47,994 nucleotides of DNA, from contig JAFAYL010000031.1 of the NCBI GenBank assembly GCA_019240405.1, positions 1-47,994 of the forward strand, read 5' to 3'. Both the position numbers and the translations under genes were made by a program. Position 1 is the stretch's first letter. Every line of letters begins with the position of its first letter. Source of the stretch: Acidobacteriaceae bacterium (GTDB taxonomy: Bacteria > Acidobacteriota > Terriglobia > Bryobacterales > Bryobacteraceae). The notes under the pieces were generated by a model, which was given only the letters and a program-made list of their open reading frames with translations, was not told the origin of the DNA and did not search any database. Below are positions 11,287-28,718 of the stretch, piece by piece.

Positions 11287-11290
11287 GCGT

Positions 11291-12853: not shown

Positions 12854-13087
12854 TCCGATCTGCCCAAACTGCAACTCCGCCCGGCAGAGGATACCCTTTC
12901 CTAAGATTTCCTTGGGTCTGGAGAACAAGCTGTTAACGACCCCACCTTCTAATTAAAGTCCACTACTAAACGGCCGATACGACTCACGTACCAGCCGCCA
13001 AATCGCAAGGACTCGCGCGTCAGCAGGATTCTGTTGGCATCCCTCTGCGCGCGTTCACTGCGCAAAGGAAGGAAAGGAGCGTTTGCT

Positions 13088-14923
13088 TTGACACTCAATC
13101 GTTTTTCTATTGCACCAATCTGTCTCGTTTTGTTTTCACCGCTGGCGCAAATTCATGCGCAGACGGCGAACCCCTACAGAACTGAAATGGATACCGAGCT
13201 TGGATCCATCTTCACCCCTCCTGCCACGGGCTTCCATTATTCAGATTTCGGGGCCTATATTGGAGCGGATCAATATAGCACCATACTCGCTCCCAGGGCG
13301 ATTAAGGGGCACTACGGGCACTTCAACCATTTCGGCCCCTTCGATGAGAAGCTCGGGTTTCCATATACCGGATTGCGTAACTATGAAGCACAGGAAGTTG
13401 CGGCCGGACGCGACCCCATTTTCGTGACTGCCACTTACGAAGGCAAGAAGCGTCCCGTACTCTTCAACGCGTATCTAGGACTCGACTCACACGGCAAAGC
13501 AACTACACCGCCGAGCAGCTGGATGTATGCGGTGAATGTGGCGGACGAGAGATTTATTAAATTCTGGCTCAATGAATATGTCCGGCCCGCCGAGCTATTG
13601 CCAATGCAAAAGCTGAATAATGTCTGGGTCTATCTTGACGGCTGTGCTTTTTTCTATGCCGCCTATGGAGTGTTGGATGACAACAATACGTTCATACCAG
13701 GCGTACCGTGGGATCCGCCCTTCCAGCAGAACTCAACCGAGTACTTGAATTCCATCGCATACTTCTTCAACCAGGTCGCTCAACTCGCGCCCGACATAAA
13801 GATCAACACAGATTTCGGCAGCATGTCCGATCCCACCCAGTTCTCGTCCATTTATGCCAACGTCGGAAGCGCGCTCTCCGAAGACGATTACAGTTGGACT
13901 GTATCACCTTCGCAATATGTGAGAGATCACTATTACCTCGAGCCGATGCAATGGCTAAGCTGGCTGGCGGCCCATAACCGCCCAGTTATTGTCGGATCCC
14001 TGTACTTACCATCGAACTGGCAAAACGGCGCTTTATTATCCGCGTTCGTAAACTATGAACTCGTGAAGGGCGCCAACTTCTTTTTCGCGCCGCGCACAGG
14101 CACCACTTCGATTCCTCCTTCCGCATGGGAAGGTTGGAACGCCGCGCTCGGAAATCCCGTCGGCACTTTTCAAAGCACGTTGCGAACAGGTAAGGGAACA
14201 AGTGTCAGCAGCCGCCTGTTTTGGCGAGAGTTCACCGAAGGCTATGTGTATCTCAATATGACGGGCATTACTCAGACCGTGACGTTGCCGGCGGGCAAGT
14301 GGGTCGACCCGAGCAACAATCCAGTCACGAAGCTCACACTCCCGACTTCCACGGCCACTTTCGTCACTGCAGCAAGATCCAGCGCAGTCACCGCGCCTGC
14401 TCCCGCGATTGAGCCGCGTACTCCATACAGCATAACGGGTCCAGCAACAATCACAATCGCGAGCAAAATACCCGGCGCGACAATCCACTACACCCTGGAT
14501 GGCAAGACTCCAACATCTTCGTCGCCCGTCTATTCAGGACCTATTGAGTTGAATAGCAGTGCTGTGGTTCAGGCCCAGGCGGTTGCGTCGGGTTACAACC
14601 CCAGCGCGATCTCGAGTGCCTCGTACAAGGTCATTGCCACGCCGCCGACTGTGCAATTTGCAACATCTTCGGACACCGGTTACTCGGAGATCACTACGTG
14701 CTATCCGGTTCTAGCTCTTTCCGCCATACCAGACGGACCTGTTATCGTGACTTACTCGGCACGGCCTGCCGTCGGTGCCCCCATAATCGGCACTGCGACA
14801 TTCTTGGCAGGAGAGGTCTATACGTTCTTCCCCGTTCCGGTCTCCGGCTCGGTAAAGGTGACGATAACCTCGGCTGTCGGCGCTGTCGTAGGAGCCGCGA
14901 ACACATTTGAATTCTCGAATTAA
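13088..14923 (+). CDS. Secreted protein with chitobiase/beta-hexosaminidase C-terminal domain; putative glycosidase-like core
   Basis: A 611-residue protein. I place the start at TTG 13088, preceded by AAAGGAG at the right distance and opening a signal peptide (MTLNRFSIAPICLVLFSPLAQIHAQ); the frame stays open to 13034. Residues about 30-430 include VWVYLDGCAFFYAAYG, DIKINTDFGS, LSEDDYSW and VKGANFFFAP, which look like strands of a TIM-barrel carbohydrate enzyme, but I cannot assign a GH family or the acidic pair. Residues about 440-520 are a CHB_HEX_C_1-type domain (GATIHYTLDGKTP, SPVYSGP, VQAQAVASGYNPS). A final beta domain follows. A hairpin terminator lies just downstream. It sits at the left edge of the glucan island. 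Confidence 0.72.
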   Translation: MTLNRFSIAPICLVLFSPLAQIHAQTANPYRTEMDTELGSIFTPPATGFHYSDFGAYIGADQYSTILAPRAIKGHYGHFNHFGPFDEKLGFPYTGLRNYEAQEVAAGRDPIFVTATYEGKKRPVLFNAYLGLDSHGKATTPPSSWMYAVNVADERFIKFWLNEYVRPAELLPMQKLNNVWVYLDGCAFFYAAYGVLDDNNTFIPGVPWDPPFQQNSTEYLNSIAYFFNQVAQLAPDIKINTDFGSMSDPTQFSSIYANVGSALSEDDYSWTVSPSQYVRDHYYLEPMQWLSWLAAHNRPVIVGSLYLPSNWQNGALLSAFVNYELVKGANFFFAPRTGTTSIPPSAWEGWNAALGNPVGTFQSTLRTGKGTSVSSRLFWREFTEGYVYLNMTGITQTVTLPAGKWVDPSNNPVTKLTLPTSTATFVTAARSSAVTAPAPAIEPRTPYSITGPATITIASKIPGATIHYTLDGKTPTSSSPVYSGPIELNSSAVVQAQAVASGYNPSAISSASYKVIATPPTVQFATSSDTGYSEITTCYPVLALSAIPDGPVIVTYSARPAVGAPIIGTATFLAGEVYTFFPVPVSGSVKVTITSAVGAVVGAANTFEFSN

Positions 14924-14944
14924 TTAAAATTTCTGGGCTGATTC

Positions 14945-14983
14945 GGGCCGGGCAGGGCTTCCCTTCTCCGGCCCTTTCTCTTT
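14945..14983 (+). terminator. Rho-independent terminator after the 13088 gene
   Basis: A 7-bp stem, GGGCCGG (14945-14951) pairing with CCGGCCC (14968-14974), carries an inner AGGG/CCCT stem with a CTT loop (14954-14964). It is followed by TTTCTCTTT. It lies about 20 bases after the stop, and the tail is pyrimidine-rich though not a pure T run. Confidence 0.65.
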
Positions 14984-15036
14984 CACTCTCCGCCATCTTT
15001 CAAGCAAATGGCGCCGCAAGCCTGGCGTCTGCAAGA

Positions 15037-16245
15037 ATGATTCGCATGATCAGAACGTCCGCCCTTTTCGGTGGCGTAGCCGCTCTCTTTTTTGCCAGTG
15101 GGATGGCATCCGGTCAGGCCGGCGAGAGTGTTCAGCAGCAGATACAAGCGCATGCGCGACAGGCTCAGGAAGACCTTCGAGATAAGCGGCCAGATGTCGC
15201 GGCTAAAGAATTCACCGCCATTGTTGCGCTCGATCCAAACAATATAGAGGCGCGCGGCAACCTTGGCGTGCTGCTGTTTTTTCAACATGATTTCACGAAC
15301 GCTGCGCCTCAGCTTCGCGCGGCGCTTCAGCTCCAGCCTTCGCTCTGGAAGATCGAGGCTCTCCTCGGAATGTGTGAGAGGCGCATTGGACAAGCAGCTG
15401 ATGCGCAGGCAGACCTGGAAAAGTCTTTTCCGCAATTGACCGATGAAAAGCTTCGCATCCAGGCAGGAATGGAGCTGATCGAGATCTACTACGGCTCGGG
15501 AACTCTCGACAAAGCCGCCGGCATCGTGAGCGCGTTACGGCAGCTCAGGCCAACCGACGTCGATATTCTCTATACCGCCAATCGCATTTACTCGGACTTA
15601 GCGGACGAAAGTATGTTGAGCTTGGCTATGCTCGCTCCGGATTCCGCGCGGATGCATCAGATGATGGCGCATGAAGCGGCAAGGCAAGGAAACACGCAGG
15701 GCGCGATCGCGCAATATCGCGAGGCCATGAAGCTCGATCCAAATATTCCCGGCCTGCACTTCGAACTTGCGGAGGCACTCGCCGGTTCTTCGCAGCCTTC
15801 TGACCGGGCCGAAGTCGAGCGCGAGTACAAAGCCGCATTGACAGCCAATCCTTTCGATGAACGCGCCGAATGCAGGCTCGGCGAGATCGCGGCGCGTGAG
15901 TCTGATGTGAAAGCTGCCGAAGCGCATTATTCACGGGCGCTGCAATTGCAGCCCAATGATGCCGGCGCGAACCTCGGTCTCGCGAAAACGTTGATCGCGG
16001 TGAACCAGTCCGATAAGGCCATTCCGCTGCTCGAGCGTGCGGCCCAAATCGAGCCGTTTAATGCTGCGATTCACTATCATCTATCAACCTTGTACCGCAA
16101 TGCAGGCCGGACTGACGACGCAAAGCGCGAGCTGGTGGAATTCCGGCGACTTAGAGGAATGAAAGCTCGCCTCACCCAGATTTACCAGGCCATGCGTCTC
16201 CAACCCTCCGAGCAAGAACGCCCCGACCAGGATGTGCCGAAATGA
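15037..16245 (+). CDS. Exported TPR-repeat protein
   Basis: A 402-residue protein with a signal peptide (MIRMIRTSALFGGVAALFFASGMASGQ) and then a chain of tetratricopeptide repeats. Examples are VAKEFTAIVALDPNNIEARGNLGVL, AIAQYREAMKLDPNIPGLHFELAEAL, AEAHYSRALQLQPNDAGANLGLAKTL and AIPLLERAAQIEPFNAAIHYHLSTL, extending to about residue 385. There is no catalytic domain, so it is likely a periplasmic scaffold or partner for other exported proteins. The next gene (GH30) starts 19 bases after its stop, which suggests one transcript with the glycoside hydrolase. An internal ATG at 15046 could also serve as the start. Confidence 0.82.
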   Translation: MIRMIRTSALFGGVAALFFASGMASGQAGESVQQQIQAHARQAQEDLRDKRPDVAAKEFTAIVALDPNNIEARGNLGVLLFFQHDFTNAAPQLRAALQLQPSLWKIEALLGMCERRIGQAADAQADLEKSFPQLTDEKLRIQAGMELIEIYYGSGTLDKAAGIVSALRQLRPTDVDILYTANRIYSDLADESMLSLAMLAPDSARMHQMMAHEAARQGNTQGAIAQYREAMKLDPNIPGLHFELAEALAGSSQPSDRAEVEREYKAALTANPFDERAECRLGEIAARESDVKAAEAHYSRALQLQPNDAGANLGLAKTLIAVNQSDKAIPLLERAAQIEPFNAAIHYHLSTLYRNAGRTDDAKRELVEFRRLRGMKARLTQIYQAMRLQPSEQERPDQDVPK

Positions 16246-16264
16246 GCGGTTATCATCGATCAGA

Positions 16265-17674
16265 ATGCCAAGTCGCCTGACTCGCCGCCAGATCCTCAAA
16301 GTTGCGCCCGCCGGCATAGCTGCTCTCGCCTCCACAAACGCAAGCGTTCAATCAGGCGGCGAAATTGCTATCCGCGTAACCGCCGGTCACAAGCGTTTCG
16401 CGGAGGAAAATGCGCTCCGCTGGCAGTCGGATCGCGGCGCATCGCCCAAATCGATAACTATCAATCCAGATAACGGCTATCAGGAAGTGCTTGGCTTCGG
16501 AGCGGCATTAACCGATTCGGCCTGCTACACGCTGCATCAGCTTCCACCGACCGCGCGCGAAGAATTGTTTCATGAGCTGTTCCATCCATCTGCGATGGGC
16601 TTCAGCGTGTGCCGCATCTGCATCGGCTCAAGCGATTATGCGGCGAAAGTTTACAGCTTTGACGAAGGCGAGCCCGATCCGGATTTGAAGCGTTTTTCCA
16701 TTGATCACGATCGCGAGTACATTATTCCAATCCTGAAGGAGGCGCGCCGCGTGAATCCGGATCTTTTCCTGCTCGCTTCGCCGTGGAGCCCACCCGGCTG
16801 GATGAAGGCCAACAACTCGATGTTCGGCGGATGCATTCGAAAGCGATACTTCCCCGCTTATGCCAGTTATTTTTTGAAGTTTCTTCGAGCCTACTCGGAG
16901 GCCGGCGTTCCGGTTAATGCAGTCACGATCCAAAACGAGGTGGACACAGATCAGGACGGGCACATGCCCGCGTCACTCTGGGGTCAAGAATATGAGGTGG
17001 AGTTTGCGGCGGCTCATCTTGGACCGTTGCTCCAAAAGGAGAATGGCGATACAAAGATCTGGATCATCGATCACAACTACAACCTGTGGGGGCGCGCCAT
17101 CTGCGAGCTCGATGATGCGGGTGTAAATCAATATGTGGACGGAGTGGCATGGCATGGCTATCTCGGCGAGCCTTCTGCGATGACGCGCGTGCACGAGGCC
17201 CATCCCGAAAAGCACGCCTATTGGACCGAAGGAGGTCCCGACCTTCAAAATCCGAAGTACGCGGTCGAGTGGACGCGCTGGAGCTCAACCTTCACCGGCA
17301 TTCTTCGCAATTGGGCGCGCTGCATCATCGGCTGGAATCTCGCGCTCGATGAAGCCGGCAAGCCCAATATCGGTCCGTTTAGCTGCGGCGGTATCGTCAC
17401 CATCAACTCTCAATCGAAACAGATTACTCAAAGCGGAATGTATGCGGCGTTTTCGCACTACTCGCGCGCGATTCGACGAGGCGCGCGTCGCGTGGATTCA
17501 GCTGGCGATATCAAGAGCGTGTCACATGTCGCTTTCGTGAATCCCGACCAGACGCAGATCGCAATTTTGACGAATGCGGGACAAGAGCAAGCCGTCGTGT
17601 TGCGGATCTCTGGAAAACAAACAGAGGTCCGTCTACCAGGCGATTCGGTTACTACTTTGACTTGGCGCTCCTAA
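16265..17674 (+). CDS. Glycoside hydrolase family 30 (glucosylceramidase / beta-1,6-glucanase type)
   Basis: A 469-residue exported retaining glycosidase. The ATG at 16265 gives a Tat-like leader (RLTRRQILKVAPAGIAALA). GH30 marks are QEVLGFGAALTDSACYTL, SVCRICIGSSDYA, LLASPWSPPGWMKAN, VNAVTIQNEVDTDQDGHMP with acid/base Glu225, and HAYWTEGG with nucleophile Glu322. The C-terminus forms the side beta domain typical of the family. Known activities include glucosylceramidase, endo-beta-1,6-glucanase and xylanase. Nearby GH3, GH5 and GH16 genes favour beta-1,6-linked glucan as substrate, which is an inference. It converges with the GMC gene five bases away. Confidence 0.9.
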   Translation: MPSRLTRRQILKVAPAGIAALASTNASVQSGGEIAIRVTAGHKRFAEENALRWQSDRGASPKSITINPDNGYQEVLGFGAALTDSACYTLHQLPPTAREELFHELFHPSAMGFSVCRICIGSSDYAAKVYSFDEGEPDPDLKRFSIDHDREYIIPILKEARRVNPDLFLLASPWSPPGWMKANNSMFGGCIRKRYFPAYASYFLKFLRAYSEAGVPVNAVTIQNEVDTDQDGHMPASLWGQEYEVEFAAAHLGPLLQKENGDTKIWIIDHNYNLWGRAICELDDAGVNQYVDGVAWHGYLGEPSAMTRVHEAHPEKHAYWTEGGPDLQNPKYAVEWTRWSSTFTGILRNWARCIIGWNLALDEAGKPNIGPFSCGGIVTINSQSKQITQSGMYAAFSHYSRAIRRGARRVDSAGDIKSVSHVAFVNPDQTQIAILTNAGQEQAVVLRISGKQTEVRLPGDSVTTLTWRS

Positions 17675-17679
17675 TTGCG

Positions 17680-19335
17680 CTAGGTCTTATTGTTTTCGAT
17701 CAGGTACTCTGACGTCCGTAGCGAAAAGGCCAGAATGGAAATGGTCGTTGTCTTGTCCGTGCAATTCGGAAACACGCTGGCATCGCAGATGTAGAGATTC
17801 GGAACATCGTGGGTTTGGCCGAAGCGGTTCGTCACAAACTTCTTCGGATCATTCCCCATGCGGCAGGTTCCCGTTTCATGCAGGCTTGTTCCGGGCGTGT
17901 CGATCTCGCCAGCGCCGAGGTATTCGGCGCCGCTTGCGTGAAGAAGTTGCTCGCAGGCTTGCTTCCCGTGCTCCCACATCAACAGCGTGTTCTTGTCCCA
18001 TTGAAAATGAAGGCGCGCGGCGGGAATTCCATAGACGTCCTTCACAGTTGGGTCAATGTCGACGTAGTTGGAATCGCTGCGCTGCGTGGGCGCCTGAATA
18101 TAGAAGCCGATCGGCGTCGGGTAGCGGCGTTTGATTTCGCGCTTAAATTCACTGCCGAAACCCTCGATCTGATCGAAGTACGACGGAAAACCGCCGCAGC
18201 CGCCGTCGGGATAGACGGAGTATCCGCGAATGAACTTCTCGCTTCGCGGATTTTCGAGATTCTGCCAGCGGGGCAGCCAAGCAACCGTGCTCGCCGAAAC
18301 ATTATCGGGAAAACTGGGTTGGCCGAGAAGTTGTGGAAAGTAGCCGCGCACTATTGTCCCATAAAGGTGATCACATAAATTTCGGCCCACCTGCCCGCTC
18401 GAGTTGGCTACCCCTGTTGGCCACTGGCGCGATTTGGAATTCAGAAGAATGCGCGCCGATTCGACACAAGATGCCGCGACGACTACATTCTTTGCGAAAA
18501 CTTCCACCTCTTGCCGTGTGGTGCGATCGATATAAGCGACACCGGCGGCGCGGCCGTTCTCGTCAACGACGATGTTCTTCGCGAGCGCATTGGTCCGGAT
18601 TTCGAGATTGCCCGATTTCTCTGCCTCGGGCAAGAAAAACCACGGAGTCGAAAAGAACGAACCAGTATCGCAGCCTTCCGAGCAGTTCGCGCAGTAATGG
18701 CACGCCGGATGCCCGGCGTGATTTCGCGTGAGCTGCGCAATGCGATCCGGCAGATAGGGAATTCCGATCTTCTTCGCGCCGCTCTCGAGAATCCGATCGA
18801 TGCAGCGAAAGTTCATCGGCGGCAAATATTCGCCATCCGGATTGCTCGCCCGATTTTGCACGGTGCTAGCTACGCCGATCATGCGCTCGACGCGGGTATA
18901 GTATGGAGCGATTTCGTCGTACGTGATCGGCCAGTCAACGTCGTAGCCGTCGCGTGTGGCAGCTTTAAAATCGATTTCGCTGAATCGCGCTGAGGACCGG
19001 CCCCAGAAGTTCGTCTTGCCCCCGACGGCAAAGCAGCGGCGCCATGTCCATTCGGTTCCGGGTGCAGTTGTGAAAACGATCTCGTGCTCCCAGATTCCAT
19101 CCGTGTACTCGTTGTCCATGTAGCCGATCGACTGCTTGCGTTTCTTTGGATCGTTGAATCCACGAAACTTCATGTCGTATGGCTGCTTGTGATTGCGAAA
19201 GTCCTTGCGAGGGTCGAGGCGGCGGCTCCCATTCAGAGCGCATACCTTCGCTCCCGCCTGGCAGAGGCGATGAATCACCATCCCGCCGCCCGCGCCGGTT
19301 CCGATCACAATCACGTCGTAAATCTGTTTTGACAT
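17680..19335 (-). CDS. GMC-family oxidoreductase, large subunit (sugar/glucoside dehydrogenase type)
   Basis: A 551-residue FAD enzyme. The dinucleotide-binding motif is IGTGAGGGMV (residues 11-20). Four cysteines in HPACHYCANCSEGC (Cys212, 215, 218, 222) form a CxxC-x2-C-x3-C set like the iron-sulfur site of FAD-dependent glucose and glucoside-3-dehydrogenases. The C-terminal GMC domain has LHETGTCRMG (catalytic His) and ASVFPNCTDKTTT (second catalytic position, here Asn). The start codon directly abuts the stop of the small-subunit gene (TAAATG), so the two are translationally coupled. No signal peptide is present, consistent with co-export on the Tat-carrying small subunit. Likely substrates are glucose or beta-glucosides released by the neighbouring hydrolases. 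Confidence 0.9.
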   Translation of the reverse strand: MSKQIYDVIVIGTGAGGGMVIHRLCQAGAKVCALNGSRRLDPRKDFRNHKQPYDMKFRGFNDPKKRKQSIGYMDNEYTDGIWEHEIVFTTAPGTEWTWRRCFAVGGKTNFWGRSSARFSEIDFKAATRDGYDVDWPITYDEIAPYYTRVERMIGVASTVQNRASNPDGEYLPPMNFRCIDRILESGAKKIGIPYLPDRIAQLTRNHAGHPACHYCANCSEGCDTGSFFSTPWFFLPEAEKSGNLEIRTNALAKNIVVDENGRAAGVAYIDRTTRQEVEVFAKNVVVAASCVESARILLNSKSRQWPTGVANSSGQVGRNLCDHLYGTIVRGYFPQLLGQPSFPDNVSASTVAWLPRWQNLENPRSEKFIRGYSVYPDGGCGGFPSYFDQIEGFGSEFKREIKRRYPTPIGFYIQAPTQRSDSNYVDIDPTVKDVYGIPAARLHFQWDKNTLLMWEHGKQACEQLLHASGAEYLGAGEIDTPGTSLHETGTCRMGNDPKKFVTNRFGQTHDVPNLYICDASVFPNCTDKTTTISILAFSLRTSEYLIENNKT

Positions 19336-19950
19336 TTAGAATCGCGGTGGCGCCAAGTGCCGGTGCTCGGGATCATCTTTGTGGGGACACTCGGGAGACG
19401 CTGAATAGAGCTTCAATCCGGGATAATCGAGTTGCTCCAGTCCAATTCGGCTGGTGTAGTAACCCATCACTGTATACTCGCGAAGCAACTTGAAAAACTC
19501 CTGGCCCTGTATTTCCGTCGGGAACTGCTGGTCGCGGTATGCCAGACGCCGGAGGAGCGCCTGCTGCTGAGCGGTCGAGATATCTGAGAATCCGGAGCCA
19601 TAGTTTTCCGTTGCGAATGCATCGAGCCACGCCACTCCGGTCCTGAAGCGGTATTGAATGTCATCATCGTGGGCAACCATGAAGTCGATGAACTCGCTCA
19701 CGCCGGCATCTCTCGCGCCGGGAGTGCCGTCGTTGGGAATGATGAGCTCCGTACTTTGGTCGATGATCTTGTATTCAGCCGGAGTGAAGAATTGCGGCGT
19801 GTAAGTTGCTGGCCGAGGCTTTGGCGCATTCTCTGTGTGCGCATGCTCGGCAGCACAGATCCAACGGCTGAAGCCGCCAAATTGACTCATGGCTGCTACT
19901 TTTGCGAGCATCGCCAAGACCTCGCGTCTATCTGGTGACTGGTTCGCCAT
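19336..19950 (-). CDS. Gluconate 2-dehydrogenase subunit 3 family protein (GMC small subunit)
   Basis: A 204-residue partner of the GMC enzyme. The N-terminus DRREVLAMLAKVAAMSQFGG has twin arginines and a hydrophobic stretch, a Tat signal that can carry the folded large subunit across the membrane. The family core is seen as FFTPAEYKIIDQSTELIIP and then ARDAGVSEFIDFMVAHDDD, with GYYTSRIGLEQLDYPG near the C-terminus. In characterised homologues this subunit acts in maturation and export of the flavoprotein, and does not do catalysis. It is divergent from the GH3 gene, with only 50 bases between the two starts, so promoters for both must share that gap. Confidence 0.88.
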   Translation of the reverse strand: MANQSPDRREVLAMLAKVAAMSQFGGFSRWICAAEHAHTENAPKPRPATYTPQFFTPAEYKIIDQSTELIIPNDGTPGARDAGVSEFIDFMVAHDDDIQYRFRTGVAWLDAFATENYGSGFSDISTAQQQALLRRLAYRDQQFPTEIQGQEFFKLLREYTVMGYYTSRIGLEQLDYPGLKLYSASPECPHKDDPEHRHLAPPRF

Positions 19951-20000
19951 TCGCTTTATATGATGGTGTGCGCAGTTTCTACGATTCCGGAGAGATCCGC

Positions 20001-22187
20001 ATGAACAAGTCCTGCCTCGCTCACCTCGCCCTTGCTGCTACTTTCGCATGTTGCGTTGGAGAAGCCGCCGCCCAACAATCCCAGTCTCGTCCTTGGATGA
20101 ACCCGCACTTATCACCCGACGAGCGCGCGGACATGGTTCTGAAGGAAATGACCCTCGACGAAAAGATCGATCTGCTGCATGGGAACGGCATGCCGGGTTG
20201 GCATGGAAAAACCTTTCCCAATGCCTATCTCGGCAACGGCGGTGCGGGATTCGTGCTCGGCGCTTCCAGGCTCGGCATCCCAATGATTCAGATGAGCGAC
20301 GCGGCGTATGGCGTGAGATCGAGTGGCGACAACGGGCGTTACTCGACAGCGCTGCCCTCCAACATTGCAGCCGCTTCGAGCTGGGATCCCCAAGCGGCCT
20401 GTTGGTACGGAGGGCTCATTGGCCGCGAGTTGCGCGCGCAAGGCTACAACATGACGCTCGGCGGCGGCGTGAACATCACGCGCGAGCCGCGCAACGGAAG
20501 AACGTTCGAGTATCAAGGCGAGGATCCGATTCTTGCCGGCACGCTGGTTGGTAATCGCATTAAATGCGAGCAGGCCGAGCATGTGATCGGCGATATCAAA
20601 CACTACGCGGTTAACGACCAGGAAAGTGGCCGCAACGAAGTCAATTCGGTGATCGGAAAACGCGCCATGCGCGAAAGCGATTTGCTTGCATTCGAGATCG
20701 GCATTCAAATCGGGAACCCCGCTGCGGTGATGTGTTCCTATAACGCCGTGAACGGCGATTTCTCCTGCGAGAACAAATATCTCCTGACAGACGTCCTCAA
20801 AAAGGACTGGAACTTCAAAGGATTCGTGGTTTCCGATTGGGGCGGGACGCACAGCACAGTAAAGGCCTCGGCCGCTGGATTGGACAACGAGGAGCCTGAG
20901 GATCTGTTCTACGGCGAGAAGTTGAAGCAGGCCGTGCAGGATGGCAAAATCTCCAATGCCGAGCTCGACGATCACGTGCATCGCGTGCTGCGTTCCGAGT
21001 TCTTGAGCGGCGTTGTGGATTGGCCTGCAGAGAAGAGGGTAGTCGATGTGGAAGGCGGTTTCGAAATCTCGCGGCGGATCGCCGAGCAAAGCATCGTGCT
21101 GCTGAAGAATACCGGAATGCTGCCGCTCGATCCCGAAAAAATCCGCTCCATTGCCGTCATCGGGCCGCACGCAAACGAAGGAATGATTTCGGGCGGCGGA
21201 TCGGCGCAGGTGGACGCGCCCGGCCGCCCGGCCGCTAAGTGGCAGGAACAGATTTGGTTTCCGACATCGCCTTTGAAAGCCATCCGAGCAAAGGCCCCGA
21301 ACGCGGACATCAAATTCGATGCCGGCACAGAACCCTCCGCCGCTGCTGCGGTGGCCAAGCAGGCCGATGTCGCGTTCGTTTTTGTGTACCAATGGACAAG
21401 CGAAGGAATGGATCTCCCGAACTTATCGCTACCTGAGAACCAGGACGCACTGATTGAGCAAGTGGCAACGGCGAATCCGCGGACTGTTGTCGTACTCGAG
21501 ACCGGCACCGCTGTCACGATGCCTTGGGCTGACAAAGTCGGCGGGATCGTCGAAGCCTGGTATGCGGGCAGCAAAGGTGCCGATGCAGTCGCAAATATTC
21601 TTTTCGGTGACGTGAACCCGAGCGCGAAACTGCCGATCACATTTCCGCGCAGCGAGGCGGATCTGCCGCACCCGAATCTGGTGATGCCACCGCCAGGAGC
21701 AACCGGACCGGAGGCAGTGATGAGAACAGGCGAAGCCAAGCCGACGTTCGAGGTTCATTACGATGAAGGCTTAAAGGTCGGCTACAAATGGTACGACGCA
21801 GAGAAAAAACCTGTCCTGTTTCCATTCGGGTACGGACTCTCCTACACGACATACTCATACTCCGGGCTGAAGGTCGCGCCCGGCGAGAAGGTCACGGTGA
21901 GCTTCACGGTTCGCAATACCGGGAAGCGGGCCGGAGCCGAGATCGCCGAAGTGTATGCTTCTTTGCCGAGCGAAGCAGGCGAGCCTCCGAAACGGCTGGT
22001 CGGTTGGAGCAAGATCAAACTAAACCCTGGCGAAAGCAAGGAAGTAACTCTAATGATCGACCGTAAATATCTGTCGATCTACGATGAATCGCAAGATGCC
22101 TGGAAACTTGTTCCCGGGCAGTACACGTTCATGGCCGGAGGATCGTCACAAGAGCTTCCGCTGCGGCAGACCGTCAGCTTGAATTAG
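20001..22187 (+). CDS. Glycoside hydrolase family 3, beta-glucosidase-like, exported
   Basis: A 728-residue protein; the ATG at 20001 has GGAGAG upstream and begins a signal peptide (MNKSCLAHLALAATFACCVGEAAAQQ). The N-terminal barrel carries DKIDLLHG, DEIRMSDAAYGVR-like motifs, DIKHYAVNDQE and the nucleophile Asp279 in GFVVSDWGGTHS. The alpha/beta sandwich follows (LLKNTGMLPLD, IAVIGPHAN, EAWYAGSKGADAVANILFGDVNPSAKLPITFPRS), then a fibronectin type III-like domain (YEDGLKVGYKWYD-like start, VSFTVRNTG). The usual activity is removal of glucose from the non-reducing end of beta-glucan oligosaccharides. Its stop overlaps by four bases the stop of the convergent TonB-receptor gene. Confidence 0.92.
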   Translation: MNKSCLAHLALAATFACCVGEAAAQQSQSRPWMNPHLSPDERADMVLKEMTLDEKIDLLHGNGMPGWHGKTFPNAYLGNGGAGFVLGASRLGIPMIQMSDAAYGVRSSGDNGRYSTALPSNIAAASSWDPQAACWYGGLIGRELRAQGYNMTLGGGVNITREPRNGRTFEYQGEDPILAGTLVGNRIKCEQAEHVIGDIKHYAVNDQESGRNEVNSVIGKRAMRESDLLAFEIGIQIGNPAAVMCSYNAVNGDFSCENKYLLTDVLKKDWNFKGFVVSDWGGTHSTVKASAAGLDNEEPEDLFYGEKLKQAVQDGKISNAELDDHVHRVLRSEFLSGVVDWPAEKRVVDVEGGFEISRRIAEQSIVLLKNTGMLPLDPEKIRSIAVIGPHANEGMISGGGSAQVDAPGRPAAKWQEQIWFPTSPLKAIRAKAPNADIKFDAGTEPSAAAAVAKQADVAFVFVYQWTSEGMDLPNLSLPENQDALIEQVATANPRTVVVLETGTAVTMPWADKVGGIVEAWYAGSKGADAVANILFGDVNPSAKLPITFPRSEADLPHPNLVMPPPGATGPEAVMRTGEAKPTFEVHYDEGLKVGYKWYDAEKKPVLFPFGYGLSYTTYSYSGLKVAPGEKVTVSFTVRNTGKRAGAEIAEVYASLPSEAGEPPKRLVGWSKIKLNPGESKEVTLMIDRKYLSIYDESQDAWKLVPGQYTFMAGGSSQELPLRQTVSLN

Positions 22188-25100
22188 AAGGACAGCCTAG
22201 CGCCGAGCTGAACCGTGCGGGGTCCTTGAGTGTAAAAAATCCCGGATCCGCCGGAGGCTCCCACGTAATTGTTTGGGAGGCCGAAATTCGGATGGTTGAG
22301 CGCATTCATTGCGTCCACCCGAAGTTGCAACTGGCCCGCCTCCCGGCGTGGCAGCGGGAAGCGGAAACTCTTACCCATTGAAAAATCGAAACTCACGAAA
22401 TCAGGCCCTCGCAAAATGTTTCGCCCCGCTGTGCCATATGTGCCGTTAGGCGGTATTGCCCACGCCGGATTGGTGCAGCCACTGGGATTGGTCGTTCCGT
22501 CGGGCAACAGAGTACAGGTGTTGAACCACTCCTGAATGTTCGGATTCGCTACGTTCGGGTTTCCAATGAGATTCGGATACCAGCTAGCATTACTAGACAA
22601 AGTACCGCTGTTATTGACAGTTCCGACAAAGACGGTAAATGGATATCCGGATTGGACGACAAAAATCGTAGAAGCCTGCCAGCCGCCGAAGATAGCATCC
22701 ACAAATCCTTCGCGGTTGAGAAATGCTTTCCCTTTTCCAAACGGCAACTGATACACGACATCGCCTTTGAACATATGACGCAGATCAAAGTTTGAAGGGC
22801 CGTAGTTCATCGAAGGATTCCACGCATTCTGATAAGGCTGGCTTCCGGCGCCCGCACCATAGCCCGAAGAATCCTGGTCATCTAACATCTTTGCGAAGGT
22901 GTAATTTGCGTCAAACTGGAACCCATGTGTGAACCGCTTCGTCATCGAGAGTTGCAGTGAATCGTAATTGGAAATCGCGTTATACCGGCTGCCGTTGATG
23001 GTCTGGAACTGTGGAAAGGGTCTTAATACCTGCGGGTTGAGTTTCGCGAGGGTCAACGCAACGCTTTCCTTAAGCAAGTTAGGCGGCACCTGGTTTATGT
23101 CGTCGGGAAAATACAAGCCGGTCGCGTGACTCCCGACATAGGCCGCCTCGGCCAACATGTCGTGCGGAAATTGCTTTTGGATACTGAAAGACCACTGGTA
23201 ATTGCGAGCTACAGGCGTGTTGTAGGGATAGTAATTCACCGATTGACCGTTGTACGCTCCGGGATTGCGCGAGGCTATGACATAGTTCAATGGTGGATTC
23301 GGGTTCGAGAGAATGAAAACCGGGTGGATCTGGTCCATTTCGGTTAATGACCCTACACTGTTCGTGCCCAACCCCTTGGCGTTGTCCGCGTAGGTATCCA
23401 TGGTCCAGTTGTAACTGTAAATCCCGAAGCCGCCCCGCACCACCCAGTTGTTCAGTGGAGACCACGAGAAACCTACGCGAGGAAGAAAGACCTTGTGATT
23501 GGCGGCCTGAATCGAATTTCTTCCGTTGTTCGGGGCGAACCACATGGCGCCAAAGGTGTTAGTTACCGGATTGAGAATCGTCGGATCGAAATCGCCGATG
23601 CGGTTCTTAACCTCATGCCATCCACCGTGGATCTCATAACGCACGCCTATGTTCAGAGTTAAATTCGGCCGGACCTTAAAGTCGTCATTCACAAAAAACT
23701 GCGGGCTCTTTTGCCGCATGCCCACAATCGGCGTGACCGAAGCGCCCCAGGACGAGACATACCCCAGGAGGAAGTCGGCGTACCCAAGTCCGCCCGTGCC
23801 GGAAGGCCCCGATTGGGTGAAGACGCCACTGAAGCTAAGGTTCGCTGCGTTAATGTTTCCCCACGGAGTGGAATTGTCCTGATAAGCTAACAGCTCGCCA
23901 CCGAACTTCAGGATGTGCCTGCCGCGGATCATGGTTACCACATCCGAAGGTTCGAAGCTGTTCTCTACATAAATGGCATTGGTGCCTGCAGCGACTGAGG
24001 TGCAGCAAGGCCCGCCTCCGCTTATATTCACAGTAGGAGCTACGTCCGCTTTTGCGTACTGTATCCCCAGCGCTTGCGGGACGCCTTGGCCGAGCGTCTT
24101 GGGGTAAAACCAGTTGCCCTGCCGAGTAAAGCCGAAGCGGAACTCGTTTATAACATTCGGACTAAGCGTCCATACATCGGAGACTTGGGCATTCACGCTA
24201 GATATGTCGTAAAACGGGCTGCTATATGGGCTATTAGTCCATGGGTAATCAAACGTAGTGCCACTCCCGCGATGGTCCCGCTCGGTAATGGAGAAAGTTA
24301 GGCGGTTCCGGTCCGACAAATTGTAATCTAGCCGTCCAAAGTACTTTAGGAAAGGTGACGAACTCACGAGCAACCCTTGCCAGTTATTTATGTACCCCGG
24401 GAGATTAGGCTTCGGATACACATTTTGAATTCTAAGTGCCACCGGATCGAGCGGAATGTTAATCGTGTTATTCGGGAACGGCTGGCGTGTGACAGGATTA
24501 TAAATATTCGGGAACTGAGGGGAGTTGAAATCGCCGGCTCGCATATTAACCGTCCCAAAACTACCATCCGTCGGCACCGTATCAAACTCAAAGTAATGTG
24601 AGTTGTTTATGGTCTTGTCTACGTCAAAGAAGAAGAAGAATTTATTCTTTAGGATCGGACCGCCGATAGCGCCGCCAAAGTTGTTGTAGCGCAAATTTCC
24701 AACGCTGGGAGCAAAGAAATCTCTCGCGTTCAAAAAGTCATTCTGGAAGTACTCGTATACGGCGCCGTGAAATTCGTTTGTTCCGCCTTTGCTGATTTGA
24801 TTGAACGCCGCGCCGCCAATCCCGTATTGCGCCGAGTAAGTCGAGGTTTGGATCTGGAGCTCGGACATGGTCTCCAGAACCGAAGTATCGGTATTACCAC
24901 TGTGCGGCAACGTAGTTGACGCGCCGTCGGCAAGGAAATTCGCGTAATAAGGCAGATTCCCGTTTACGGCAATCCCCTGGCCGCTCCCAACGGCTCCGGG
25001 GAGCACTTTCGTGTAGTTTTCCCAGTCCTGACCCACATTCGGCAGATTTATCAACGTGTTCGCGTCGAAGGTCGTCGACTGCTCGGCGGTTTCGGTCTTC

Positions 25101-25504
25101 AACATGGTCGCTTCGGCTGTAACCTCCACCTGTTGTTGGGCTGTTCCGACGGTTAGCTGGGCATCCAACGTGAGCGTCTGAACCTGCAATGTAATCCCAT
25201 CGCGAACGAAATCGTTGAAACCCTTGGCGTTGAAAGTAACTTTGTAGTTTCCCGGGAGAAGGGAAACCGCGTCATAGATGCCGCTCTGGTTCGTTGTCAC
25301 GCTCCTGCTTACGCCAGTGTCGACATTGAGAATTGTCACGGTGGCATCCGGCAATACCGCTCCACTAGGATCAGTAACTGTACCGCGAATTTCGCCGGAA
25401 TTCGTGTTTTGCGCAAGCGCGAAGCTAGCGCCCAAAAGGGCCACAAACAGTATCGAAGACAACCGGAACCAGCTCTGGCAACGCGTTGATGAGCAACTTG
25501 GCAT
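22184..25504 (-). CDS. Oar-like TonB-dependent receptor with carboxypeptidase-regulatory domain
   Basis: An outer-membrane transporter of about 1106 residues. I place the start at ATG 25504, with GGAAGGAG six bases before it, in place of a TTG at 25510. The signal peptide (FRLSSILFVALLGASFALAQ) is followed by a CarboxypepD_reg domain (GEIRGTVTDPSGAVLPDATVTILN), a plug region (SELQIQTSTYSAQYGIGGAAFNQISKGGTN) and a long barrel (NLTLNIGVRYEIHGGW, GGWQASTIF). It ends in an aromatic residue (QLGARLSF), as expected for BAM assembly. This large receptor type is numerous in Acidobacteriota. Its place among GH3, GH5, GH16 and GH30 suggests oligosaccharide uptake. There is no adjacent SusD-like lipoprotein. 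Confidence 0.9.
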   Translation of the reverse strand: MPSCSSTRCQSWFRLSSILFVALLGASFALAQNTNSGEIRGTVTDPSGAVLPDATVTILNVDTGVSRSVTTNQSGIYDAVSLLPGNYKVTFNAKGFNDFVRDGITLQVQTLTLDAQLTVGTAQQQVEVTAEATMLKTETAEQSTTFDANTLINLPNVGQDWENYTKVLPGAVGSGQGIAVNGNLPYYANFLADGASTTLPHSGNTDTSVLETMSELQIQTSTYSAQYGIGGAAFNQISKGGTNEFHGAVYEYFQNDFLNARDFFAPSVGNLRYNNFGGAIGGPILKNKFFFFFDVDKTINNSHYFEFDTVPTDGSFGTVNMRAGDFNSPQFPNIYNPVTRQPFPNNTINIPLDPVALRIQNVYPKPNLPGYINNWQGLLVSSSPFLKYFGRLDYNLSDRNRLTFSITERDHRGSGTTFDYPWTNSPYSSPFYDISSVNAQVSDVWTLSPNVINEFRFGFTRQGNWFYPKTLGQGVPQALGIQYAKADVAPTVNISGGGPCCTSVAAGTNAIYVENSFEPSDVVTMIRGRHILKFGGELLAYQDNSTPWGNINAANLSFSGVFTQSGPSGTGGLGYADFLLGYVSSWGASVTPIVGMRQKSPQFFVNDDFKVRPNLTLNIGVRYEIHGGWHEVKNRIGDFDPTILNPVTNTFGAMWFAPNNGRNSIQAANHKVFLPRVGFSWSPLNNWVVRGGFGIYSYNWTMDTYADNAKGLGTNSVGSLTEMDQIHPVFILSNPNPPLNYVIASRNPGAYNGQSVNYYPYNTPVARNYQWSFSIQKQFPHDMLAEAAYVGSHATGLYFPDDINQVPPNLLKESVALTLAKLNPQVLRPFPQFQTINGSRYNAISNYDSLQLSMTKRFTHGFQFDANYTFAKMLDDQDSSGYGAGAGSQPYQNAWNPSMNYGPSNFDLRHMFKGDVVYQLPFGKGKAFLNREGFVDAIFGGWQASTIFVVQSGYPFTVFVGTVNNSGTLSSNASWYPNLIGNPNVANPNIQEWFNTCTLLPDGTTNPSGCTNPAWAIPPNGTYGTAGRNILRGPDFVSFDFSMGKSFRFPLPRREAGQLQLRVDAMNALNHPNFGLPNNYVGASGGSGIFYTQGPRTVQLGARLSF

Positions 25505-25522
25505 CTTCAACTCCTTCCTGCC

Positions 25523-25552
25523 TTGACGAACACGTCACATTCCGTTCGTCAA
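25523..25552. promoter_or_regulatory. 8-bp inverted repeat upstream of the TonB-receptor gene
   Basis: TTGACGAA (25523-25530) and TTCGTCAA (25545-25552) are exact reverse complements separated by 14 bases. They lie in the gap between the GH5 and receptor genes, 18 bases upstream of the receptor start. It could be an operator for a dimeric repressor or a leader hairpin; there is no T-tract, so simple termination is unlikely. Confidence 0.55.
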
Positions 25553-25601
25553 GTCGAGACCTTCCTGTGACATAGACTCACCCGAAGGGGAACGGTATCG
25601 C

Positions 25602-26828
25602 TCAGAATGAAGGCTGCTTCACCCCGAGAGCCTTCAGATAACCCGAATTCACCCGGCACTTCTCCAGGCGGATTTTATCGAGCAGATCTTCTAATGCCTG
25701 GCGAGAGTGTTCGAGCGACGGGCGCGCCGCAATGCGTTTCTCTGCCGATCCGGTTCCCCCGGGGAGCTTGGCAAACGCGACGATCTCATCCCAGTGCGCG
25801 GGCTTTGGAATGGAGACGACGCAAGAAGACTTTTCCATCTTCTTGTACGGCCAGAAGCACCAGCCGATCTTGTTCTCTCCCAAAACACGGACAAACTGCT
25901 GAATCCATTCATCAGTGTTCTCGCCAGATTCTCCCAACCAAACCGGCACGTTGTAGCGGTCGCGATAATCGAGATACTCCTGAATGACATCTTTGGTGGG
26001 AGACGTCCAGTATTTGTGAAATTGGTAAACGACATTCGAATCGAATGGCGGTCCGAAGACTTTGAAGTTACTGTCCCATTGAGCGCCACCGAGGATAATG
26101 ATGTGATTCTTGTCCACTTCACGGATGGCTTTGGTGATGCGGCGATAAAGCGGTTCTAATTGGCTGTTGTATTTCAGCAGTTGCGGGTAATGAGGAATTG
26201 GCTCATTTAGCAAATCGTAACCAATAATGATGGGCTCGTCGCGGTAGTGCCGGGCGATTCGTCTCCAGACCTCGATTGTTAATTCCTGATCCTGCTGACT
26301 TTCGAACAGCCAAGGATATCCCCAGCTATCATCGATGTTTGTTCCGGTTTGTCCACCGGGCGCGCAGTGCATGTCCAAGATAATCCAGATTTTGGCTTGG
26401 CGGCACCAGGCAACCGCGGCGTCAAGCAATCCAAAGCCTTCATTTTCGGACAAAAAGAATTTGTAGTGGAACGGAATTCGGACGGAGTTGAAGCCGGAGG
26501 ATCGGACGAGATCAATGTCGGCTTTCGTGATGTATTGCTGACGATATTTTTTCCAAAACTCCTCTGCTGCTGCGGGCCCGATTAGCTCGTTAAAGAATGC
26601 CTCGATCTCGCGAGGAGATGCGGGCCCTTCTTCAAACAGAAACATGTATCCTTCTGGCTCAAGCCAATTTCCCAGATTAATGCCGCGAAGTTGGAGCCTC
26701 TGGCCATCGGGGCCGACCAGATTTTTCCCCTGCCTCCGAACGAAACGAACGGATGCGGCGTGCTCCTGACCTATAGCTGCTGCGGCGTTGGCGGCCAGGG
26801 ACGTCTTTACGAAACTGCGTCGGGTCAT
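25602..26828 (-). CDS. Glycoside hydrolase family 5 (beta-glucanase type), Tat-exported
   Basis: A 408-residue retaining glycosidase; the ATG at 26828 gives a twin-arginine leader (MTRRSFVKTSLAANAAAAIG). GH5 landmarks are QLRGINLGNWLEPEGYMF, GFNSVRIPFHYKFF, IWIILDMHCAPGGQ, the acid/base Glu209 in YDLLNEPIPHYP, and the nucleophile Glu300 in VWLGESGEN. The opening RGINLGNWL and the DMHxxPGGQ motif resemble exo-beta-1,3-glucanases and related GH5 branches more than classic endo-cellulases, though the subfamily needs a tree. The start lies one base after the esterase stop, and the receptor gene follows 91 bases downstream, so the three genes look like an operon. Confidence 0.9.
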   Translation of the reverse strand: MTRRSFVKTSLAANAAAAIGQEHAASVRFVRRQGKNLVGPDGQRLQLRGINLGNWLEPEGYMFLFEEGPASPREIEAFFNELIGPAAAEEFWKKYRQQYITKADIDLVRSSGFNSVRIPFHYKFFLSENEGFGLLDAAVAWCRQAKIWIILDMHCAPGGQTGTNIDDSWGYPWLFESQQDQELTIEVWRRIARHYRDEPIIIGYDLLNEPIPHYPQLLKYNSQLEPLYRRITKAIREVDKNHIIILGGAQWDSNFKVFGPPFDSNVVYQFHKYWTSPTKDVIQEYLDYRDRYNVPVWLGESGENTDEWIQQFVRVLGENKIGWCFWPYKKMEKSSCVVSIPKPAHWDEIVAFAKLPGGTGSAEKRIAARPSLEHSRQALEDLLDKIRLEKCRVNSGYLKALGVKQPSF

Positions 26829-26829
26829 G

Positions 26830-27897
26830 TTATCTCCCCAGATTCTTATCAAAGAACGCGGTCATGATTCCATACGCTTCTTTTGATTCGGGCAAATCGG
26901 GATTATTCCAGAAAGCATGCGGCAGAGCTTCGAAAACAACGAGCCGAGCATCCACGCCGGCGCGGAGGAATGCGCGGTGCAGAATGGTGGTGCCACTCAG
27001 CAGAAGATCGCGCGTACTTGTAATGAAGAGGGTTGGCGGCAGCCCGTGCAAGTCCGCGTAGATTGGTGAGAGAACAGGATCATTCAAATCTGTTGAGCGG
27101 GCATACGAACTCTGAGGCGCTTCTCTGGAGGGCGGAGTGAGGGATCCTGAGAGGCCATTCAGGCCGAATAGCGCTTGCGAATCGCCGAACCGGCTGAAAT
27201 CTCCATGTCCGGAGAATATGCCAAGCGCCGCGGGAAGGGGTTGTCCGGATTGGCGAAGCTTCACCGCTACTTCCCCGGTAAGAATAGCGCCTGCCGATGT
27301 TCCATAGAGAGCGATGTTTTGGGGCTTGTAAGCTTTCAGGAGCTCTTTGTAGACCGCGACCGTGTCGTCAACCGCAGCGGGAAACGGATGTTCCGGCGCA
27401 AGCCGGTAAAGAACCGCAATCACCTTGGTTTGCGCAAGGTTGGCGATGGGAATTGTTTCGGTGAGCGAGCCGGAATCGGCGTTGAAACCGCCGCCATGGA
27501 CATTAATCAGCAGACGGCAGCGATTGCTTTCCGGGATTGTCAGCGGGGTGATGACTCTGGTGGGCACGCCCGCGATGGTTTCTTGTCCGACGTTTACCGG
27601 ATACTGCGAGCGCGACCGCTCCCCTGCTCCACGTTGCCATTTATCAATATTGGCCCGGCGTTTTTCCAGAGTCTCAGGCCGTGCAGCATCCGAGACGCGC
27701 CGCGCGAGGACTTTCTGCGCTTCGGGACTGACGGTTGCCGGAACTGGAACCACTCTTGTGACGTGTGCCGTGCCGCCGGCGTCGATGAAGCTTGTGTCTT
27801 GTTGCGGTAGCGGCATTCCTGATGCCGGTATTAAAAAGGCGGCGAGCACTATCAGTCGACTGCGTGCTCTCGTTGGCTGGATTCGTTTCGCGATCAT
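26830..27897 (-). CDS. Alpha/beta hydrolase, HSL-type esterase, exported
   Basis: A 355-residue esterase with a hydrophobic leader (SRLIVLAAFLIPASG). The hormone-sensitive-lipase signature is complete: oxyanion-hole HGGG at 134-137, nucleophile elbow GTSAG with Ser201, Asp297 in STRDLLLSG and His327 in ALPHAFW. Such enzymes cleave short-chain esters. In this context removal of acetyl or other acyl groups from glycans is plausible, which is an inference. Its stop is immediately followed by the GH5 start. The start codon faces that of GH16 across only 32 bases. Confidence 0.88.
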   Translation of the reverse strand: MIAKRIQPTRARSRLIVLAAFLIPASGMPLPQQDTSFIDAGGTAHVTRVVPVPATVSPEAQKVLARRVSDAARPETLEKRRANIDKWQRGAGERSRSQYPVNVGQETIAGVPTRVITPLTIPESNRCRLLINVHGGGFNADSGSLTETIPIANLAQTKVIAVLYRLAPEHPFPAAVDDTVAVYKELLKAYKPQNIALYGTSAGAILTGEVAVKLRQSGQPLPAALGIFSGHGDFSRFGDSQALFGLNGLSGSLTPPSREAPQSSYARSTDLNDPVLSPIYADLHGLPPTLFITSTRDLLLSGTTILHRAFLRAGVDARLVVFEALPHAFWNNPDLPESKEAYGIMTAFFDKNLGR

Positions 27898-27929
27898 TGT
27901 TTCTATTGATCTACTATCATGAATCGCTA

Positions 27930-28718
27930 ATGCGCAATGGGCTGGTTTTCATTCTGCTGTTCATCGCGCTGCCGGTTCATGCGCAAACAGATTGGAAGCT
28001 GGTCTGGAGCGACGAATTCGACGGCGCGCGAAACACTGGACCGGACCTCTCGAAATGGACCTTCGATTTAGGCGGTGGTGGCTTTGGGAATCGGGAACTC
28101 GAGATTTATACAAACAAAACCGAAAACATATTCAACGATGGCCAGGGACATCTGGTTATACGCGCAGTGAAGGAGCGGTCGGGGAGCTTTACGTCCGCGC
28201 GCATAAAGACAGAGGGAAGATTCACGGTCAAATACGGCAAGATTCAGGCACGAATCAAGATCCCTTCGGGGCAAGGGATGTGGCCGGCGTTCTGGATGCT
28301 GGGCGACGACATTGGGAAGGCCGGCTGGCCGGATTGCGGCGAGATTGACGTGATGGAGAACATCGGGAGGGAACCGTCGACGGTACATGGAACCGTGCAT
28401 GGGCCGCGGTACTCGGGTAAGGATGGGATTACATCGCAATATTCACTGCCGGACGGTTCGGCATTGAGCCGGGACTTTCATATCTATTCGGCCGTGTGGT
28501 CGTCGGGATCGATAACGTTTCTCCTCGATGGCAAAACGTACGGAACGGTGACTCCGGGCTCGCTTCCGAGAGGCGCGAAATGGGTGTTCGATCATCCGTT
28601 CTTCATATTGCTGAACCTTGCGGTGGGAGGCACCTGGCCGGGCAATCCCGACAAGACGTCTCAGTTTCCGCAGGAGATGGTGATCGATTGGGTGAGGGTC
28701 TGGCAGGCTGCTCGATGA
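27930..28718 (+). CDS. Glycoside hydrolase family 16 (laminarinase-like beta-1,3-glucanase)
   Basis: A 262-residue secreted enzyme; ATG 27930 opens a signal peptide (MRNGLVFILLFIALPVHAQ), whereas the longer frame from 27792 lies antisense to the esterase. The jelly-roll fold begins with WKLVWSDEFDG. The catalytic ExDxxE reads GEIDVMENIG (Glu138, Asp140, Glu143), and the extra Met before the last Glu marks the beta-bulge form typical of bacterial beta-1,3(4)-glucanases. FHIYSAVWSSGSITFLLDG and PFFILLNLAVGGTWPG are further family blocks. It would cut the beta-1,3-glucan backbone and feed GH3 and GH30. A toxin-antitoxin pair overlaps its end. Confidence 0.93.
   Translation: MRNGLVFILLFIALPVHAQTDWKLVWSDEFDGARNTGPDLSKWTFDLGGGGFGNRELEIYTNKTENIFNDGQGHLVIRAVKERSGSFTSARIKTEGRFTVKYGKIQARIKIPSGQGMWPAFWMLGDDIGKAGWPDCGEIDVMENIGREPSTVHGTVHGPRYSGKDGITSQYSLPDGSALSRDFHIYSAVWSSGSITFLLDGKTYGTVTPGSLPRGAKWVFDHPFFILLNLAVGGTWPGNPDKTSQFPQEMVIDWVRVWQAAR

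Follow-up and report, generated by a model that had tools for sequence, protein, structure and literature searches.

A Probable Beta-Glucan Utilisation Locus of Terriglobia with an Oar-Type Receptor and a TPR Protein and without SusC/SusD

Introduction

One of the closest described counterparts of the locus reported here is the 1,6-beta-glucan polysaccharide utilisation locus (PUL) BT3309-BT3314 of Bacteroides thetaiotaomicron. It combines a glycoside hydrolase (GH) of family 30 (BT3312), a GH3 enzyme and a TonB-dependent receptor under a fungal beta-glucan theme; besides these it has the SusC/SusD pair (SusCD) and a glycan-binding lipoprotein at the cell surface, and its GH30 is itself a lipoprotein (PMC5481569). 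Our subject is an island at 13.0-28.7 kb of a 47,994-nucleotide stretch of Acidobacteriaceae bacterium DNA, hereafter the window, which is an entire contig (C32) of a draft genome (4.45 Mb in 63 contigs, 95.8% complete, 3.8% contamination). With the PUL the island has three elements in common, a BT3312-like GH30, a GH3 and a TonB-dependent receptor; it differs in having no SusD and instead a secreted tetratricopeptide repeat (TPR) protein, termed TPRb, a GH30 of another type (type A) with a twin-arginine (RR) signal, a GH5, a GH16 and, in relatives, a GH55-like protein.

Our reading of the island, to which we give a probability of roughly two in three, is that a locus for beta-glucan utilisation recurs in the class Terriglobia and is present here in a rearranged form specific to the lineage. 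With the same probability we consider the conserved core of this locus best understood as a beta-1,3/1,6-glucan uptake locus that relies on an Oar-type receptor with a TPR protein as its partner and not on SusCD. The core itself consists of the receptor, the secreted TPR protein, GH30 and, in some genomes, GH5; more complete copies also contain an UnbV/FG-GAP protein, a LacI regulator, a GH3 and a GH55-like beta-helix protein. The SusC/SusD pair of a SusCD-type PUL is absent here: each of the two SusD families, PF07980 and PF14322, has matches in 0 of the 101 class genomes searched, the window's own included, while a Bacteroides control was positive. This agrees with a preliminary description of the DNA, which had reported a receptor of the Oar class without SusD.

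Results and Discussion

Composition of the Island

The ten proteins of the island, with the evidence for each, are:

13034-14923, + strand: CHB protein, secreted, CHB_HEX_C_1/Fn3_assoc, N-terminal part of about 450 amino acids (aa) without a family name (Pfam)
15037-16245, + strand: TPRb, 402-aa secreted TPR-solenoid protein (Pfam, TPR and TPR-like repeat models only)
16232-17674, likely start 16265, + strand: GH30 type A with RR motif of the twin-arginine translocation (Tat) kind (Pfam, signal peptide)
17680-19335, - strand: glucose-methanol-choline (GMC) oxidoreductase (Pfam)
19336-19950, - strand: Gdh3, gluconate 2-dehydrogenase subunit 3-like small subunit, RR motif (Pfam)
19902-22187, likely start 20001, + strand: GH3, beta-glucosidase-like, secreted (Pfam, signal peptide)
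22184-25510, - strand: Oar-type TonB-dependent receptor, CarboxypepD_reg and PF25183 barrel (Pfam, 707 bits)
25602-26852, likely start 26828, - strand: GH5, RR motif (Pfam, signal peptide)
26830-27897, - strand: hormone-sensitive lipase (HSL)-type esterase, GTSAG subfamily (NCBIfam)
27792-28718, likely start 27930, + strand: GH16, beta-1,3-glucanase/laminarinase-like, secreted (Pfam, signal peptide)

The alternative starts of GH30, GH3, GH5 and GH16 were inferred from signal peptides. All genes named in the preliminary description, namely GH30, GH3, GH5, GH16, the HSL esterase, the Oar-like receptor, GMC with Gdh3 and the CHB protein, were found again by Pfam within about 15 kb, and its designation of Gdh3 as a Tat subunit fits the RR motif, which the window GH30 and GH5 carry as well. 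TPRb, which directly precedes GH30, was absent from its list. The receptor sits between GH3 and GH5, so that a TonB-dependent receptor stands beside genes of carbohydrate-active enzymes, and Pfam names no dedicated sugar-sensing regulator among the ten proteins.

Conservation of the Core Locus in Terriglobia

TPRb is the best marker of the conserved part of the locus. Its closest named relatives belong to metagenome-assembled genomes (MAGs) labelled Acidobacteriaceae and Bryobacterales, both of the class Terriglobia according to NCBI, and with a cut-off of E 1e-70 the protein has orthologs in 50 of 399 class genomes, among them the own one. Of the 55 matches outside the own genome, 25 have a listed GH30 no more than 15 kb away, whereas about 0.4 would be expected from random placement in a 4.5-Mb genome; the observed figure is a lower bound, as only listed GH30 genes were counted. 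Seen from the enzyme, eight of 40 GH30-centred loci, which were chosen from the better-ranked matches, hold TPRb (at least 46% identity) and the receptor (at least 42%) together with GH30 (L043, L052, L053, L057, L058, L063, L067 and L071), and these eight come from three families.

The gene order was followed by tblastn in 40 TPRb neighbourhoods, which were taken from 56 class-genome matches with 12 lower-ranked ones left out and which form a biased sample: most of the 20 stretches in one set (of the 40) had been picked for TPRb near GH30 or GH5. The co-directional order receptor-TPR-UnbV-GH3-GH5-GH30-GH55-like is complete in L155, L157, L158 and L159, where the mechanical list of open reading frames places GH3, GH5 and GH30 of L159 on the opposite strand and tblastn places them on the same strand as the rest. 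A further gene of 353-387 aa lies between UnbV and GH3 in all four; in L155, whose eight genes are all named by Pfam, it is LacI, and Pfam also names LacI genes in the neighbourhoods L052, L063 and L058. Orthologs of the window GH5, present in 40 of 399 class genomes (own included) at the same cut-off of E 1e-70, are 54-61% identical to it in the conserved locus and stand beside GH30, in several cases also beside the GH55-like protein. The latter (L057:1176-4151, about 990 aa) contains two PF12708 stretches, a tandem that we take as a mark of GH55, and its best solved matches are the beta-1,3-glucanases 3eqn (E 6.5e-13) and 5m5z (E 1.3e-12), both members of family GH55.

A third sample consists of 80 named loci that were chosen by TPRb alone, being the best 80 of 104, and that overlap with the class-genome sample (for example, L231 is the contig of L057). 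The receptor lies within 300 bp upstream of TPRb on the same strand in 60 of the 80, at 301-1500 bp in four and further away in six. GH30 is present in 37, UnbV (at least 55% identity) in 46, LacI in 35, the GH55-like protein in 20 and GH3 in 13. Among the 33 named loci of at least 18 kb, every one has the receptor and 27 have at least one of the five GH groups. As a control, 20 receptor stretches of the own genome contained none of the five GH groups (0/20), and GMC and a LacI match in two each.

The preliminary description had proposed a comparison of gene order across Acidobacteriota, and the grouping is indeed kept for one part of the island: TPR, receptor, GH30 and GH5 cluster in relatives, often with the GH55-like protein. 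The remainder does not share this conservation. We rejected the full 15-kb set as a conserved unit, since members beyond TPR, receptor, GH30 and GH5 are rare or absent in the loci of relatives; the full set is lineage-specific. In the same-genus genome G013 the order is TPR-GH30-receptor, with no GMC, Gdh3 or GH3 in between.

The beta-glucan locus is complete or almost complete in L155-L159, L266, L271 and L276. The last three are from named strains: Edaphobacter aggregans DSM 19364 (L266), whose stretch shows no GH3, E. modestus DSM 18101 (L271), in which no GH55-like protein was seen, and Acidobacteriaceae bacterium KBS 146 (L276). One MAG labelled Verrucomicrobia bacterium (Tous-C9LFEB, L302) has receptor, TPR (46% identity), UnbV, LacI and a type B GH30, which may reflect a transfer or a mislabelled bin.

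The TPR Protein and Its Receptor

The AlphaFold model of TPRb is all helical (predicted local distance difference test, pLDDT, 90.9) and forms a TPR superhelix, and its top Foldseek matches are TPR proteins such as O-GlcNAc transferase (OGT). SusD itself contains TPR repeats, and TPRb was considered as a hidden SusD. We rejected this candidate, as Pfam sequence families, fold search and lipobox all fail to support it: none of the best 50 Foldseek matches listed for the model is described as SusD, and a lipobox, searched with a crude pattern, occurs in just 4 of 107 TPRb proteins.

The Oar-type receptor is ordinary in this genome, in which PF25183, a family that we take to be linked to Oar, has 61 matches at 55 places. 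Compared with receptors that neighbour TPRb in other families, the window receptor reaches 832-955 bits, and compared with those in the 20 fetched own-genome stretches it reaches at most 320 bits; TPRb likewise reaches 367-472 bits with its counterparts in other families and at most 126 bits with those of the own genome. Because both scores are higher to other families than to the own genome, the nearest kin of the window pair is the same pair elsewhere.

These relations bear on an explanation that we judge unlikely, in which the TPR proteins do general housekeeping or assembly work in the periplasm, are encoded close to many outer-membrane genes and have no specific role in glycan uptake. TPR proteins are common, the model is a plain TPR superhelix, and several of the weaker TPR matches in the own genome lie far from receptors. 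Those weaker matches are also enriched near receptors at the larger distance (12 of 22 within 4.5 kb, which covers 13.2% of the genome), so that closeness as such is not special to one type of TPR protein. At the shorter distance the types part: of the seven nearest TPRb paralogs in this genome, six have a receptor at 1.6 kb or less and all seven have one within 4.5 kb, whereas only two of the 22 weaker matches fall within 1.6 kb, a zone that makes up 6.8% of the genome. The linkage of TPRb orthologs to beta-glucan-type enzymes, together with the closer kinship of window TPR and receptor to the pair of other families than to those relatives in the same genome that were compared, further argues against a mere housekeeping function.

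UnbV is found near 8 of 12 own-genome receptor stretches that had been chosen for TPR, compared with 1 of 8 others. As a required partner it was rejected: it is frequent and not universal, and the window is without it. ASPIC/UnbV and TonB genes are among the paralogs analysed in Solibacter (PMC3174227).

Comparison with Sus-Type Loci and Proposed Mechanism

Beyond the B. thetaiotaomicron PUL, we compared the locus with records that contain an UnbV homologue. Two Bacteroidota records were opened: a Hymenobacter volaticus plasmid (L305) has the run LacI-glycosidase-TonB receptor-SusD-VCBS, the last being the UnbV homologue, with GH3 further on, so that SusD stands at the place that the TPR protein occupies in Terriglobia, whereas the Spirosoma record (L306) has no SusC/SusD beside the UnbV homologue. 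Within Acidobacteriota, the plasmid pACPOL3 of Acidisarcina polymorpha (L307) carries a carboxypeptidase-regulatory receptor-type protein followed by CRTAC1/UnbV and TPR, with GH172, LacI and fucP; its enzymes are others, so it presumably serves another sugar. Two other Acidobacteriota plasmid records (L303, Granulicella tundricola pACIX901, and L304) show CRTAC1-TPR neighbours and, in an incomplete gene table, no annotated receptor. An Alteromonas record has a TonB receptor two genes from an FG-GAP protein and no sugar theme.

In L307 and L303, the adjacent CRTAC1/UnbV and TPR genes also have further carbohydrate genes (GH172, GH88) in their vicinity. The occurrence of such runs suggests that the CRTAC1/UnbV-TPR module is reused for other glycans.

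For the beta-glucan locus, we propose the following course: A secreted enzyme, GH16 in the window or the GH55-like protein in relatives, would cut a beta-1,3-glucan of the fungal wall or laminarin type, and the receptor would take in the resulting oligosaccharides. In the periplasm, GH30 and GH5, which have RR-type signals in the window, and a GH3 with a Sec-type signal would then trim these oligosaccharides to glucose. The TPR solenoid, apparently soluble and secreted, may dock on the receptor or hold the enzymes, and the position of its gene is that of SusD in one Bacteroidota example. A wider proposal, that Terriglobia own a counterpart of SusCD, we put forward only tentatively and with more doubt than confidence: The Oar-type receptor and the secreted TPR solenoid, often with UnbV/FG-GAP, could form a reusable glycan-uptake module for varied enzyme sets, in which the TPR protein would do the recruiting job of SusD from the periplasm or from outside, being neither a SusD homologue nor a lipoprotein. 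In the literature searched, the longest result lists of which were viewed in part, we found no paper describing such a receptor-TPR beta-glucan locus.

Enzymes of the Window Copy

The subfamily statements that follow are based on the ranking of matches to solved proteins, supplemented in the case of GH30 by residue checks. The best solved relative of the window GH30 is the endo-1,6-beta-glucanase BT3312 (5ngk, 211 bits), followed by SrfJ (2wnw, 167 bits) and human glucocerebrosidase (141 bits); the remaining solved entries, mostly xylanases, reach at most 76 bits. The NCBIfam model of BT3312 likewise ranks first, at 272 bits, which is below its cut-off of 700. We compared the BT3312 residue fingerprint (PMC5481569) in 38 type A orthologs, the kind found in the window, and in 16 type B GH30s, the kind found in conserved loci. 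The catalytic Glu238 and Glu339 of BT3312 correspond to E236 and E333 of the window GH30, the plus-side His281 and Asn282 to H281 and N282, and all four are kept in 38/38 type A sequences; type B keeps these four residues as well, except in single sequences. At the -1/-2 subsite, where BT3312 has Asn244, Trp345, Cys393 and Cys396, the window GH30 has Asp, Leu, Pro and Cys, while type B keeps Asn244 in 14/16, Cys393 in 15/16 and Cys396 in 16/16. Judged by these residues, type B is the better candidate for an endo-1,6-beta-glucanase, and the window enzyme appears as a Tat-type sister form that lacks part of the fingerprint. The two types also differ in their signals, the RR motif occurring in 49/52 type A and 3/36 type B GH30s, by patterns that are crude and noisy (RR in 8/84 receptors, lipobox in 8/36 type B GH30s). 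RR signals as a locus-wide trait were rejected, given their presence in only those 3/36 type B GH30s and in 3/11 GH5s.

GH16 has beta-1,3-glucanases/laminarinases as its best solved matches (3atg and 2hyk, E about 1e-80), and no other PF00722 match was found in the genome. The window GH3 matches beta-glucosidases. The nearest solved relatives of GMC are flavin adenine dinucleotide (FAD)-dependent glucose and fructose dehydrogenases, and the HSL esterase scores 449 bits against the NCBIfam GTSAG cut-off of 380. The complete catalytic residues that the preliminary description ascribed to GH30, GH3, GH5 and GH16 could be confirmed in part, for GH30 at the two glutamates named above and for GH16 through the motif EIDVME (EIDxxE). 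This motif and GTSAG of the HSL esterase are visible in the translations.

The CHB protein has full-length matches in four copies of the own genome (in the window and on contigs C26 and C35; L214, L220, L222) and no match in any other of the 200 class genomes searched (0 of 199), the sister genomes G001 and G013 not being among the matches listed. It was rejected as a chitin or glucan enzyme: CHB is a short C-terminal module, the rest of the protein matches no Pfam or NCBIfam family, and among those 200 genomes it is confined to the own one. Its structure model is too poor for a fold search (pLDDT 44.9). The CHB protein is not a member of the conserved locus, and GMC/Gdh3, HSL and CHB look like additions to the window copy.

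Two neighbouring gene pairs lie outside the island. Just upstream, at 10474-12853, a cytochrome c gene is followed by a gene for a pyrroloquinoline quinone (PQQ)-dependent dehydrogenase, a possible periplasmic pair for sugar or alcohol oxidation. At 31375-33660, an FGE-sulfatase/DinB_2 protein and a Methyltransf_33 histidine-specific methyltransferase form an EgtB/EgtD-like pair, which adjoins a CCA tRNA nucleotidyltransferase.

Contrary Evidence and Rival Explanations

Several observations, gathered here, weigh against reading the island as a version of a conserved beta-glucan uptake locus. The first group concerns GH30: at the position of Cys393, type A has Pro in 38/38 sequences and Cys in none (0/38), and at Asn244 it has Asp in 33/38. 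Because of this Pro, type A is without the Cys393-Cys396 disulfide, and as Cys393 and Asn244 are missing, endo-1,6-activity of the window GH30 is unproven. Moreover, Trp345 is kept in 0/38 type A and 1/16 type B sequences, and Asp286 falls on a gap in both types. The earlier assignment of GH30 to beta-1,6-glucan stands as far as BT3312 is the nearest solved relative, and it fails as a clean GH30_3 assignment by residue fingerprint.

The second group concerns the other hydrolases. GH5 has 9ku5 (GE32) as its best solved match, with CelC and fungal exo-1,3-glucanases ranking lower. The likeness among GE32, GE33 and GE39 exceeds 94%, and GE39, a near-twin of GE32, is a beta-xylosidase without glucanase activity (PMC6020330); the nearest assayed relative of the window GH5 is hence a beta-xylosidase. 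The proposed fit to beta-1,3-glucan agrees with the laminarinase-like matches of GH16 and is weakened for GH5. Furthermore, the window GH3 shares no more than about 30% identity with its counterpart in the conserved locus.

The third group concerns the arrangement. The window genes fall into several strand blocks, CHB-TPRb-GH30 (+), Gdh3-GMC (-), GH3 (+), HSL-GH5-receptor (-) and GH16 (+), and co-regulation is not evident. The window copy is without UnbV, the GH55-like protein and LacI and has GH16, and in the same-genus genome G001 three different contigs carry the GH30, the TPR/receptor pair and the GH5. Among the 80 named TPRb loci, ten have no receptor in the stretch (five of them with the TPR gene near a contig end), GH5 occurs in four, and none of the five GH groups is present in 32, of which 26 are stretches of less than 18 kb and six are not.

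Much of this would suit an accretion of mixed origin that serves several substrates, in which TPR, receptor and GH30 alone belong together, and the xylosidase-like GH5, the HSL enzyme as a side-chain esterase, GMC/Gdh3 and CHB act on other glycans. The separate contigs of G001, the beta-xylosidase kinship of GH5 and the counts in the 80 TPRb loci (GMC 2, HSL 1, CHB 0, GH16 0) all speak for such an accretion. GH5 orthologs are nonetheless found inside the conserved locus elsewhere, though in few of the named loci, and GH16 adjoins type A GH30 in three of the 40 GH30-centred loci (L049, L051 and L056), which are separate from the eight with TPRb and receptor. We regard mixed accretion as improbable, to about the same degree as the housekeeping role of TPR proteins discussed above. 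Beta-1,3- and beta-1,6-glucanases are typical antifungal enzymes, which could indicate a locus for remodelling or defence, through fungal wall attack or predation, and not for food uptake, but the dedicated TonB receptor and the LacI-type sugar regulators in relatives point to uptake and render this option very unlikely. A mycoparasite role of GH30_3 is mentioned in the BT3312 study (PMC5481569).

Conclusion

For the uptake of polysaccharide fragments in bacteria such as this one, with its many PF25183 receptors and without matches to two SusD families, no description was found in the literature searched. Acidobacteriota are abundant in soil, and the locus suggests that they may feed on beta-glucan of the fungal-wall type. 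The recurrent receptor-TPR-UnbV module that is tied to beta-glucan enzymes constitutes a testable unit and a marker for such loci in soil genomes, and comparing it with SusCD systems is an obvious way to ask why SusD is needed.

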